A stretch of 50,437 bases of DNA. It comes from a bacterium (GTDB lineage Bacteria; Patescibacteriota; UBA1384; JAGGWG01). Position 1 is the stretch's first letter; the number at the start of each line of letters is the position of its first letter. The DNA is taken from contig JAGGWG010000011.1 of the NCBI GenBank assembly GCA_021157605.1, forward strand, positions 1 to 50,437, in the 5' to 3' direction. Made by a program: the position numbers and the translations under genes. This document shows, piece by piece, positions 1,561 to 50,199 of this stretch. Under the pieces are notes generated by a model. That model worked only from the letters and a program-made list of their open reading frames with translations. It did no database searches and was not told the origin of the DNA.

Positions 1561-1649
1561 CACCTTACTCCCGCCGTTGGCGGGACAAGACACCGCCTTT
1601 GGCGGGACAAGCCTGCCTGACGGCAGTCAGGCACTCGGGACACCCCTCC
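1561..1649 (-). pseudogene. Relic of tRNA-Ser 5' end with inserted palindromes
   Basis: Read on the minus strand, the first 10 nt (GGAGGGGTGT, from 1649) match tRNA-Ser. About 71 nt of GC-rich palindromes follow (1569-1639), and then GTAAGG (1563-1568), which continues the tRNA D-loop sequence. The tRNA match then stops. The inserted block replaces the middle of the D-loop. It holds three stem units: one built on CCTGACGGCAGTCAGG and two built on CCCGCC/GGCGG. The tRNA match is short, so taken alone the assignment is only moderate; the same layout at Leu and fMet strengthens it. Confidence 0.65.
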
Positions 1650-33914: not shown

Positions 33915-33970
33915 GGAGCGGTAGTTCAGTTGGATAGAACGTCCCGACCTATGCGTCGGGAAGGTCGCGA
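33915..33970 (+). pseudogene. 5' relic of tRNA-Asp with palindrome in place of the anticodon arm
   Basis: GGAGCGG, TAGTTCAGTTGGATAGAACG and AGGTCGCG match the acceptor, D arm and variable loop of the intact tRNA-Asp at 34014. Between them the 17-nt anticodon stem-loop is replaced by the 20-bp palindrome TCCCGACCTATGCGTCGGGA (33942-33961). The match ends inside the T stem. A matching 3' relic lies beyond the intact gene at 34376. Confidence 0.85.
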
Positions 33971-34013: not shown

Positions 34014-34090
34014 GGGGCGGTAGTTCAGTTGGATAGAACGCCGGCCTGTCACGCCGGAGGTCGCGGGTTCAAATCCCGTCCGCCCCGCCA
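34014..34090 (+). tRNA. tRNA-Asp (anticodon GTC)
   Basis: Acceptor GGGGCGG/CCGCCCC, discriminator G, CCA encoded. Anticodon stem CCGGC/GCCGG with loop CTGTCAC gives GTC. Intact, and flanked by two relics of itself and a GIY-YIG remnant. Confidence 0.95.
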
Positions 34091-34107
34091 TTTTCTACCA
34101 TTCCATC

Positions 34108-34368
34108 ATGTAGGGTGGCTGGCTTTACATTCTTTACAGTCAATCGCGCAATCAGTACTACATTGGAAGCACTACTGATTTGAAACGCCGCCTAAAAGAA
34201 CACAAGAAGGGGAAACACCGCTTTTCTAAAACTCTGGGGAAATTTAATCTAGTCTTTGTTCAGCACTTTAAAAACATTAGAATCGCGCGCCGAAAAGAGA
34301 AACAGCTAAAAAAATGGAAACGCCGAGATTATATTGAGAAAATCATCAGGAAAGGAAAAATCCACTGA
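34108..34368 (+). pseudogene. GIY-YIG endonuclease, start disrupted
   Basis: The frame GGWLYILYSQSRNQYYIGSTTDLKRRLKEHKKG...EKQLKKWKRR is a complete single-domain GIY-YIG (UvrC N-terminal fold) protein of about 84 aa: WLYIL and YYIG strands, catalytic-type R and a KEKQLKKWKR helix. The only upstream ATG (34108) is followed at once by TAG in the same frame, so the full domain has no normal start codon; the first usable start is a TTG at 34180, which loses both signature strands. Probably an inactivated mobile endonuclease. It lies between intact tRNA-Asp and its 3' relic; a sister gene sits at tRNA-fMet (42931). Confidence 0.75.
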
Positions 34369-34375
34369 AAAGCTT

Positions 34376-34442
34376 TTCAGTTAGATAGAACGTCCCGACC
34401 TATGCGTCGGGAAGGTCGCGGGTTCAAATCCCGTCCGCCCCG
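34376..34442 (+). pseudogene. 3' relic of tRNA-Asp with the same palindrome
   Basis: Begins in the D arm (TTCAGTTAGATAGAACG), carries TCCCGACCTATGCGTCGGGA at 34393-34412 instead of the anticodon arm, and keeps a perfect variable loop, T arm and CCGCCCCG acceptor end. The first 45 bp (34376-34420) repeat 33925-33969 with one mismatch, so the intact tRNA plus GIY-YIG segment is flanked by 45-bp direct repeats. It cannot be a working tRNA: no acceptor 5' strand and an anticodon arm of wrong length. Confidence 0.85.
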
Positions 34443-42895: not shown

Positions 42896-42967
42896 TTGCG
42901 GGGGAAGGATTTGAACCTCCGACCTCCGGGTTATGAGCCCGGCGAGCTACCACTGCTCCACCCCGCA
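42896..42967 (-). tRNA. Initiator tRNA-fMet (anticodon CAT)
   Basis: Close to bacterial initiators (GGGGTGGAGCAG..., loop CTCATAA, three G-C pairs GGG/CCC in the anticodon stem, T arm GGAGG). Discriminator A; no CCA. The first pair is U1-A72 instead of the usual C1-A72 mismatch. Its 5' half overlaps the end of the GIY-YIG gene on the same strand and is duplicated at 43221-43279. Confidence 0.93.
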
Positions 42968-43218
42968 TTAATCTTTGGCCTCTTGCCCCTGTAAATCTGC
43001 TCTCTATAATAACCCGACTTTAACTTTTTTTCCAGTTTTCTTGCCTCTCGCCGCGAGCAACAACTCCAGTAAGCTATTAGTTTGTAAGGAGCAAAAGCCT
43101 TGGTAGATTTATTCTGCTCAGAATTATGCTCTTTTATTCTTCTTGCAAGATTGTTGGTCAAACCAATATAAAAATATTTCTTCTTTATGCTTTTTAAAAT
43201 ATACACAAAATAACGCAT
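42931..43218 (-). CDS. Single-domain GIY-YIG endonuclease inserted at tRNA-fMet
   Basis: 95 aa from the ATG at 43218: MRYFVYILKSIKKKYFYIGLTNNLARRIKEHN, with the VYI and YIG strands, catalytic-type R26 and a basic SRREARKLEKKLKSG helix. Single-domain GIY-YIG proteins of this type cut DNA and are related to homing endonucleases. The frame continues through the 5' flank and D arm of intact tRNA-fMet and ends at a TAA made of the last anticodon base plus the two following A's, so its last 12-13 residues are tRNA-encoded. The longer frame to 43263 runs through the palindrome and is rejected. Both ends abut copies of the fMet 5' half. Confidence 0.85.
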   Translation of the reverse strand: MRYFVYILKSIKKKYFYIGLTNNLARRIKEHNSEQNKSTKAFAPYKLIAYWSCCSRREARKLEKKLKSGYYREQIYRGKRPKINAGWSSGSSPGS

Positions 43219-43220
43219 AA

Positions 43221-43279
43221 TTATGAGCCCGGCGAGCCCTGCCTGCCGGCAGGCAGGTACCACTCTGCTCCACCCCGCA
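43221..43279 (-). pseudogene. 5' relic of tRNA-fMet with a palindrome in the D-loop
   Basis: Reading from 43279, TGCGGGGTGGAGCAG then (AG)TGGTA, a 20-bp palindrome CCTGCCTGCCGGCAGGCAGG (43238-43257), then GCTCGCCGGGCTCATAA, identical to the intact gene up to the end of the anticodon loop. After that the GIY-YIG start region follows at once. The 10 bp 5' of both copies (CAAAGATTAA) also match. Confidence 0.9.
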
Positions 43280-43346
43280 TTAATCTTTGATATAACACAG
43301 CAAGTGTAAGTTAAAAACTTTCCTTTTTCAAGGGAATTACTTCATC

Positions 43347-49969: not shown

Positions 49970-50053
49970 TGCCCGGGGAGGGAGTCGAACCCTCAAGGGT
50001 TTAGGCCCACTGGATCCTAAGTCCAGCGCGTCTACCAATTCCGCCACCCGGGC
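49970..50053 (-). tRNA. tRNA-Leu (anticodon TAG)
   Basis: Class II tRNA: acceptor GCCCGGG/CCCGGGC, discriminator A, anticodon stem CTGGA/TCCAG with loop CTTAGGA, long variable arm, T arm GAGGG/CCCTC. No CCA. A 5' relic with palindromes lies 66 bp upstream. Confidence 0.95.
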
Positions 50054-50119: not shown

Positions 50120-50199
50120 GCGCGTCTACCCCTGCCTGCCCTGACTGCCGTCAGGCAGGCGGCAGGCAACCCCGCTGCAGGCGCGGGCGCCACCCGGGC
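50120..50199 (-). pseudogene. 5' relic of tRNA-Leu with palindromes in the D-loop
   Basis: From 50199, GCCCGGGTGGCG matches tRNA-Leu, then about 57 bp of GC-rich palindromic sequence (50131-50187), then GGTAGACGCGC, which continues the tRNA up to the anticodon stem, where the match stops. The insert contains the same 21-bp core (50140-50160) as the tRNA-Ser relic (1611-1631), in inverse orientation relative to the window. Confidence 0.85.

Follow-up and report, generated by a model that had tools for sequence, protein, structure and literature searches.

Small GIY-YIG nuclease genes within tRNA genes of Patescibacteria: a candidate minimal mobile element that supplies a tRNA

A gene for a small GIY-YIG nuclease lies between a truncated and an intact copy of tRNA-fMet in a 50,437-nucleotide stretch of patescibacterial DNA (contig JAGGWG010000011.1), referred to here in its entirety as the window. 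An earlier note had proposed that an element entered the tRNA gene directly after its anticodon loop and brought a new 5′ half, so that the tRNA stayed functional. The question is what sort of element, if any, gives rise to such an arrangement, and how it relates to the tRNA gene in which it resides.

Results

Anatomy of the tRNA-fMet locus

On the minus strand, the truncated tRNA-fMet 5′ half, the GIY-YIG ORF and the intact tRNA-fMet follow one another in tandem, with the following features.

43280..43289, minus strand: left copy of the 10-bp 5′ flank CAAAGATTAA, within a 25-bp exact direct repeat (43265-43289 / 42953-42977)
43221..43279, minus strand: old, dead tRNA-fMet 5′ half, nt 1-37, with an interrupted D-loop (TGCGGGGTGGAGCAGAGTGGTA-CCTGCCTGCCGGCAGGCAGG-GCTCGCCGGGCTCATAA), ending after the anticodon loop
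43238..43257, minus strand: perfect 20-bp palindrome CCTGCCTGCCGGCAGGCAGG in the D-loop of the old half (0 expected in shuffles)
42931..43218, minus strand: GIY-YIG nuclease ORF of 95 aa, ATG at 43218-43216 (PF01541)
42968..42977, minus strand: right copy of the 10-bp flank CAAAGATTAA, in the 25-bp exact direct repeat
42896..42967, minus strand: intact tRNA-fMet(CAT), tRNA call of 71 bits

These coordinates, together with direct repeats between the old half and the intact tRNA region that are exact across 25 bp and 17 bp, confirm the order and the common 10-bp flank given in the earlier note. That description had left out the D-loop palindrome, the end of the ORF inside the intact tRNA and further units at tRNA-Asp, tRNA-Leu and tRNA-Ser in the window. 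The old half received neither an ARAGORN nor an Rfam call. It differs from the intact tRNA-fMet by two nucleotides and the palindrome only, and its D-loop is 2 nt longer. Just TT separates its end (43221) from the ATG of the ORF (43218). At its other end the ORF overlaps the intact tRNA: the tRNA 5′ half provides its last codons, and the TAA of CTCATAA serves as its stop. In the genome (22 contigs, 575 kb in all), 43 tRNAs were found, one of which is of the initiator type. This is the intact tRNA-fMet, and since it is the sole initiator tRNA found, this copy must work. A consensus promoter scan returned weak -35/-10-like pairs ahead of the old half (43331-43303) and inside the ORF (43034-43006), and was not decisive.

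The predicted protein matches PF01541 with E = 3.1e-14 and 53.5 bits against a cut-off of 22.6, which places it in the GIY-YIG superfamily. Nine columns are invariant across 15 tRNA-linked relatives and include Y6, Y17, G19, R27, H31 and E63 of the fMet-locus protein. Among solved structures, the best sequence matches are UPF0213 proteins (1zg2, 1ywl), followed by SLX1 structure-specific nucleases (7cq2); hairpin or cruciform DNA, such as tRNA genes and palindromes might form, may thus be what is recognised. The closest relative found, at 54% identity, belongs to a tRNA-Leu unit of genome G045 that carries an identical palindrome. A third GIY-YIG match in the window genome is uvrC, judged by length and sequence.

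Other units in the window and its genome

A second unit, at tRNA-Asp, and two units consisting of a palindrome alone were found in the window.

33915..33969, plus strand: broken tRNA-Asp 5′ piece, its anticodon arm replaced by the palindrome TCCCGACCTATGCGTCGGGA (33942-33961)
34014..34090, plus strand: intact tRNA-Asp(GTC), from tRNA calls
34114..34368, plus strand: GIY-YIG reading frame directly behind the intact tRNA-Asp
34376..34442, plus strand: 3′ piece of a broken tRNA-Asp, its anticodon arm palindromic as in the 5′ piece
50120..50199, minus strand: broken tRNA-Leu(TAG) 5′ piece (nt 1-12, palindromes, D-stem 3′ strand), without GIY-YIG gene
1612..1649, minus strand: broken tRNA-Ser 5′ piece (1649-1632) and palindrome (1631-1612), without GIY-YIG gene

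The tRNA-Asp and its GIY-YIG frame are together flanked by a 45-bp direct repeat, one copy of which is at 33925-33969 and the other in the Asp 3′ piece. This second GIY-YIG gene is probably decaying, since its ATG (34108) is immediately followed by TAG and no further canonical start precedes the domain. Intact genes lie downstream of both palindrome-only remnants, tRNA-Leu at 49970-50053 and tRNA-Ser(CGA) at 1401-1488, and palindrome-only broken tRNAs occur elsewhere in the genome as well. The fMet-type palindrome (allowing ≤3 mismatches) has five copies genome-wide, four of them inside broken tRNA remnants. DNA folding of the remnants gave no stability above that of shuffled sequences, except for the Asp 3′ piece. 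As a separate observation, tRNA-Asp and tRNA-fMet are neighbours in genome G001, while in the window genome they are 8.9 kb apart (34014-34442 and 42896-43289) and each has its own GIY-YIG unit.

Recurrence of GIY-YIG genes beside tRNA genes

An unbiased sample was drawn of 95 non-UvrC Patescibacteria GIY-YIG genes with their surroundings from 99 genomes, using Pfam score as the sole ranking. With adjacency defined as a same-strand tRNA ≤75 nt behind or ≤155 nt ahead of the GIY-YIG gene, 34 of the 95 genes, in 26 genomes and at 22 anticodons, were adjacent to a tRNA (expected 0.86% each; binomial p = 2e-45). The orientation was strongly biased: among 210 distinct GIY-YIG domains, downstream tRNAs lay on the same strand in 53 cases and on the opposite strand in none, and upstream tRNAs in 21 cases versus 1. 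We scored a remnant where at least 12 exact bases of the same tRNA's 5′ end, mostly from nt 1, preceded the GIY-YIG start. Such remnants accompanied 24 of 46 tRNAs with a GIY-YIG gene just upstream, compared with 6 of 98 control tRNAs (Fisher p = 1e-9), several of the control positives being palindrome-only remnants; in the other 22 of the 46 tRNA-adjacent cases no 12-nt remnant was found. Direct repeats flanked 39% of GIY-YIG genes, and mismatched controls of two kinds gave 6%.

When named genomes were scanned with a single GIY-YIG subfamily (80 loci), many Patescibacteria loci showed a common plan. It runs from tRNA nt 1 to ~12-20, through a palindrome of type CCCGCCTGCAACGCTATGCGTAGCATTGCGGGCAGG and a few tRNA bases, to the ATG of the GIY-YIG gene; its stop is followed, usually after 3-14 nt, by an intact tRNA of the same isotype. 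This plan was seen with His, Ser, Asn, Thr, Gln, Gly, Leu, Lys, Phe, Ile, Arg and Val tRNAs, and at several loci, like the fMet one, the stop codon is provided by the tRNA. The pattern of tRNA 5′ part, GIY-YIG gene and intact tRNA for which the earlier note had proposed a search hence recurs across many isotypes and lineages, and because the same arrangement recurs in other genomes, chance is excluded for the fMet locus. The anticodon loop, which the note had taken as the site, did not hold as a standard: most remnants break at nt 22-37 with the palindrome in the D-arm. In the units examined the GIY-YIG ORF is the sole gene between the tRNA pieces, as had been suggested for the fMet unit, and no recombinase gene lies in the insertion; the repeats vary from 12 to 59 bp among units. 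At two loci, L148 (2741-2840) and L107 (680-790), an inverted repeat (TAGCAATTCTGC..GCAGAATTGCTA and TTTGCCTGCCAACGC..GCGTTGGCAGGCAAA, respectively) encloses the intact tRNA that follows the GIY-YIG gene and extends the acceptor stem of this tRNA.

In a tree of the 210 domains, one clade of 23 genes consists entirely of members just upstream of a tRNA, with the isotypes mixed; the tree was built on few columns and its support is moderate, at 84% for this clade. A neighbouring 60-row clade has no tRNA link. Over the whole tree the tRNA label required 36 changes versus 63 when shuffled, a clustering that exceeds every shuffle. A large sister clade (L145-L223; tail KSYLTG/KSYFTG) from Bacteroidota, Thermodesulfobacteriota, Cloacimonadota, Myxococcota and others is without a tRNA link. 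About 64% of the sampled GIY-YIG genes lie away from tRNAs, which corresponds in part to what the earlier note had named as counting against its idea. Since the linkage is specific to a clade, this result limits the idea rather than refuting it.

Empty and split sites in related genomes

Comparisons between close relatives revealed the presence and absence of the unit at the same site. In G018, a remnant, palindromes, a GIY-YIG gene and tRNA-Arg follow one another. In G004, of the same genus, a lone tRNA-Arg stands between the gene that also precedes the G018 unit and the tRNA-His that also follows it, a clean empty site that is contiguous on both sides. In G027, tRNA-Lys is followed by a 5′ remnant of the resident-type tRNA-Glu, a GIY-YIG gene and lastly a tRNA-Glu whose acceptor stem differs. 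The same-genus sister G017, in which a search detected no GIY-YIG gene, has tRNA-Lys directly followed by the resident-type tRNA-Glu; this comparison is limited to the upstream junction because the downstream side is unconserved. At the fMet locus itself, the comparison was with G001, the one genome from the same family. Its syntenic locus has the same neighbours and neither a GIY-YIG gene nor an fMet remnant, but tRNA-fMet is inverted there. The empty site that the note had called for is thus clean at tRNA-Arg and complicated by an inversion at tRNA-fMet. Taken with the fMet locus, the clean site supports an insertion into a tRNA gene after which an intact tRNA is still present.

At the tRNA-Leu locus of G045, the resident gene, as judged from its sequence in the same-genus genome G053, is in two pieces, with a GIY-YIG gene and a foreign, intact tRNA-Leu between the 5′ and 3′ pieces. 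The dead tRNA-Leu contains three palindromes; its 3′ piece carries them in the anticodon loop and the T-arm. The rescue tRNAs of G045 and G027 differ clearly in sequence from the residents, and at G045 a foreign replacement accompanies a native dead remnant. The splitting of the resident tRNA-Leu around a foreign one indicates that complete foreign tRNAs are brought in. Rebuilding of the 5′ half alone, as the note had it, is therefore one of two outcomes. At the fMet locus, delivery of a whole tRNA and of a 5′ half would both fit, the remnant and the intact copy being too alike; since they are nearly identical, protection by recoding is not evident there.

We consider it probable that these units are a minimal mobile element. 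Its only gene would encode a free-standing GIY-YIG nuclease of small size with tRNA genes as its special target, and the element would supply either a tRNA or its 5′ half. Mobility and cutting are both inferred from sequence. The nuclease would cut a resident tRNA gene in the stretch from the D-arm to the anticodon arm, and repair from an element-bearing copy would insert the GIY-YIG ORF along with a functional tRNA that matches the resident in isotype, either a complete element-borne copy or a new 5′ half joined to the resident 3′ half. What persists of the old copy would be its 5′ part, in some cases also its 3′ part, broken up by a palindrome typical of the nuclease lineage; this palindrome might destroy the cut site and hinder recombinational loss of the element. 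Because the spacing is 0-14 nt or the ORF overlaps the tRNA, transcription of the new tRNA probably starts at the promoter of the old one and reads through the GIY-YIG gene. Loss of the element would then cost the cell an essential tRNA.

Palindromes and GIY-YIG genes

Palindromes were found in the D-, anticodon- and T-arms of broken tRNAs. For palindromes chosen by eye, their similarity tracked that of the GIY-YIG proteins (Mantel r = 0.47, 0/2000 permutations), and it did so less closely outside the main clade, again with palindromes chosen by eye (r = 0.22, 14/2000 permutations). Across 55 genomes the copy number of one palindrome type correlated with the number of GIY-YIG genes (rho = 0.56, p = 1e-5), and the correlation held for 25 family means (rho = 0.47, p = 0.02); these correlations are confounded by the repeat content of the host. 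In other genomes, CCCGCCTGC-type palindromes are for the most part found near neither tRNAs nor GIY-YIG genes, and many are far from tRNAs, which speaks against a general tRNA specificity of the palindromes. GIY-YIG genes off tRNAs often carry the same palindromic repeat on both flanks, up to 100 bp exact. An example is found in G001 (L065, G001:C70, 2540-3040), where the gene lies between two exact 100-bp direct repeats containing a palindrome; a second GIY-YIG gene 1.4 kb away is flanked by a different palindromic repeat. These loci suggest that GIY-YIG/palindrome elements exist independently of tRNAs.

Two further loci have palindromes and tRNA fragments alone. At L078 (G050:C26), a block made up of tRNA-Val nt 1-13, palindrome and nt 14-23 occurs twice in tandem directly before an intact tRNA-Val, with no GIY-YIG gene between, as might result from repeated palindrome-only insertions that left an intact tRNA each time. 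At L035 (G001), a palindrome-only broken 5′ copy of elongator tRNA-Met lies ~90 nt upstream of the elongator tRNA-Met, and its palindrome is of the type found in the GIY-YIG/tRNA-Arg unit of the same genome (L137). Palindrome-only remnants imply that remnant formation needs no local GIY-YIG gene.

These observations raise the alternative that what actually moves is the palindromes, as REP-like elements targeting hairpin loops, those of tRNA arms included, with the GIY-YIG protein acting as a structure-specific helper in trans. The tRNA duplications would then be tolerated or selected by-products, and the palindrome-only units a non-autonomous form. We regard both parts of this alternative as rather unlikely. 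They would account for the palindrome-only broken tRNAs, among them the window Leu and Ser pieces, others elsewhere in its genome and the tandem pair at L078; for palindromes in three different arms, with three in the one dead tRNA-Leu of G045; for GIY-YIG genes off tRNAs between copies of the same repeat, as with the exact 100-bp pair in G001; and for the correlation of palindrome types and copy numbers with GIY-YIG genes. The position of SLX1 structure-specific nucleases next after UPF0213 among solved structures also agrees with them. Against this, CCCGCCTGC-type palindromes of other genomes mostly lie away from tRNAs and GIY-YIG genes, the correlations could stem from genome-wide repeat content, and insertion of a palindrome alone explains neither the 0-14 nt spacing to the intact tRNA nor the same-strand rule.

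Other origins of the arrangement

Ordinary tRNA duplication and decay, in which the dead copy collects repeats and small GIY-YIG genes accumulate in neutral DNA, is distinctly improbable. Pseudo-tRNAs with a palindrome and no GIY-YIG gene, and adjacent GIY-YIG genes that have no remnant, would fit such a process. Neutral drift, however, does not give a 53:0 same-strand placement, nor ORFs whose start adjoins the remnant and whose stop lies 0-14 nt ahead of the next tRNA, nor a clade whose 23 members all go with tRNAs, of many different isotypes, nor a resident tRNA split around a foreign one.

Islands that integrate at tRNA genes typically restore the tRNA at insertion. Site-specific recombination with the GIY-YIG gene as a passenger would explain this feature, yet it is highly improbable here, given that the GIY-YIG ORF is the sole gene between the tRNA pieces of the units examined, that the restored part is mostly the 5′ side and that the repeats differ in length from unit to unit. 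Equally hard to credit is a group I intron in the fMet anticodon loop that has degenerated, with its homing endonuclease gene as what is left: a relative, G007, has a group I intron in tRNA-fMet after CTCA, and CTCATAA is a known intron site, but an Rfam check of the window locus gave no group I intron (RF00028), a complete tRNA rather than a 3′ exon follows the GIY-YIG gene, other isotypes break in the D-arm, and the nearby GIY-YIG gene of G007 lies outside the intron. The G007 locus, a patescibacterial one (L094, 1140-1346), has an RF00028 match of 61 bits in tRNA-fMet after CTCA, then a GIY-YIG gene and then elongator tRNA-Met. It was considered as a further case of the fMet pattern and rejected, being a group I intron plus a GIY-YIG gene adjoining elongator tRNA-Met.

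Discussion

Group I introns of tRNA-fMet, such as that of G007, share the gene and the CTCATAA loop with the window unit, which differs in having no intron or splicing and in restoring the tRNA at the DNA level. REP/RAYT-like systems pair palindromes with a small nuclease lineage, and some copies occur without the gene. Their nuclease fold is another one, and a tRNA-restoring structure is not part of them.

Among free-standing nucleases, SegB of phages T4 and T6, a GIY-YIG enzyme, cuts within phage tRNA genes and promotes tandem amplification of a tRNA together with segB (PMC13096335; also PMC2988022). It provides a precedent for the cutting step proposed here. Its cut motif is RAWTSGAAC (PMC2988022, PMC13096335), which by eye appears to be the complement of the T-loop sequence GTTCGAWTY. 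The window ORF resembles SegB in being a GIY-YIG gene that is free-standing, intron-free and placed among tRNA genes, here inserted in one. SegB belongs to phages and multi-tRNA arrays, in contrast, and neither a palindrome-bearing partial tRNA remnant nor an obligatory restored tRNA behind the ORF has been described for it. The survey proteins also differ from it in their size of ~80 aa and in having UPF0213/SLX1 as best structure matches. In mitochondrial mORFs (Allomyces atp6; Glomus atp6/atp9/cox2/nad3), an endonuclease ORF splits an essential gene and comes with a foreign replacement part, leaving a native dead remnant (PMC3630166). The combination of nuclease, replacement part and dead native part is the same. 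The mORFs, however, concern protein genes of fungal mitochondria, replace the C-terminus and, in the atp6 case, encode a LAGLIDADG enzyme (PMC3630166), whereas the GIY-YIG units concern bacterial tRNA genes and replace the 5′ part or the whole gene. The GIY-YIG/tRNA unit is best read as a cellular, tRNA-directed variant of these known gene-restoring, free-standing endonuclease elements. In searches confined to open-access papers, we found GIY-YIG genes described neither beside tRNAs of cellular bacteria nor in connection with REP-type palindromes, and met with no tRNA-linked mobile arrangement for UPF0213/SLX1-type nucleases.

Synthetic cleave-and-rescue drives combine a nuclease directed against an essential gene with a linked functional copy of that gene. 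The GIY-YIG units differ in being natural and bacterial, and their cutting is predicted from the arrangement of the loci. A bolder form of our reading, which we put forward tentatively, is that they amount to a natural bacterial cleave-and-rescue system. An ~80-residue nuclease would attack tRNA genes as a class, switch between isotypes, replace essential tRNAs by linked copies and mobilise its cognate palindrome in trans.

If the units are indeed minimal mobile elements directed at tRNA genes, then the smallest free-standing nuclease elements would resist loss by supplying an essential tRNA, and would offer a natural, testable counterpart of the synthetic drives. Such elements may account for pseudo-tRNAs of candidate-phyla bacteria, for the replacement of their tRNAs by foreign ones and for many of their palindromic repeats. 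They would also give a role to small GIY-YIG proteins, a large group to which databases assign no specific function.
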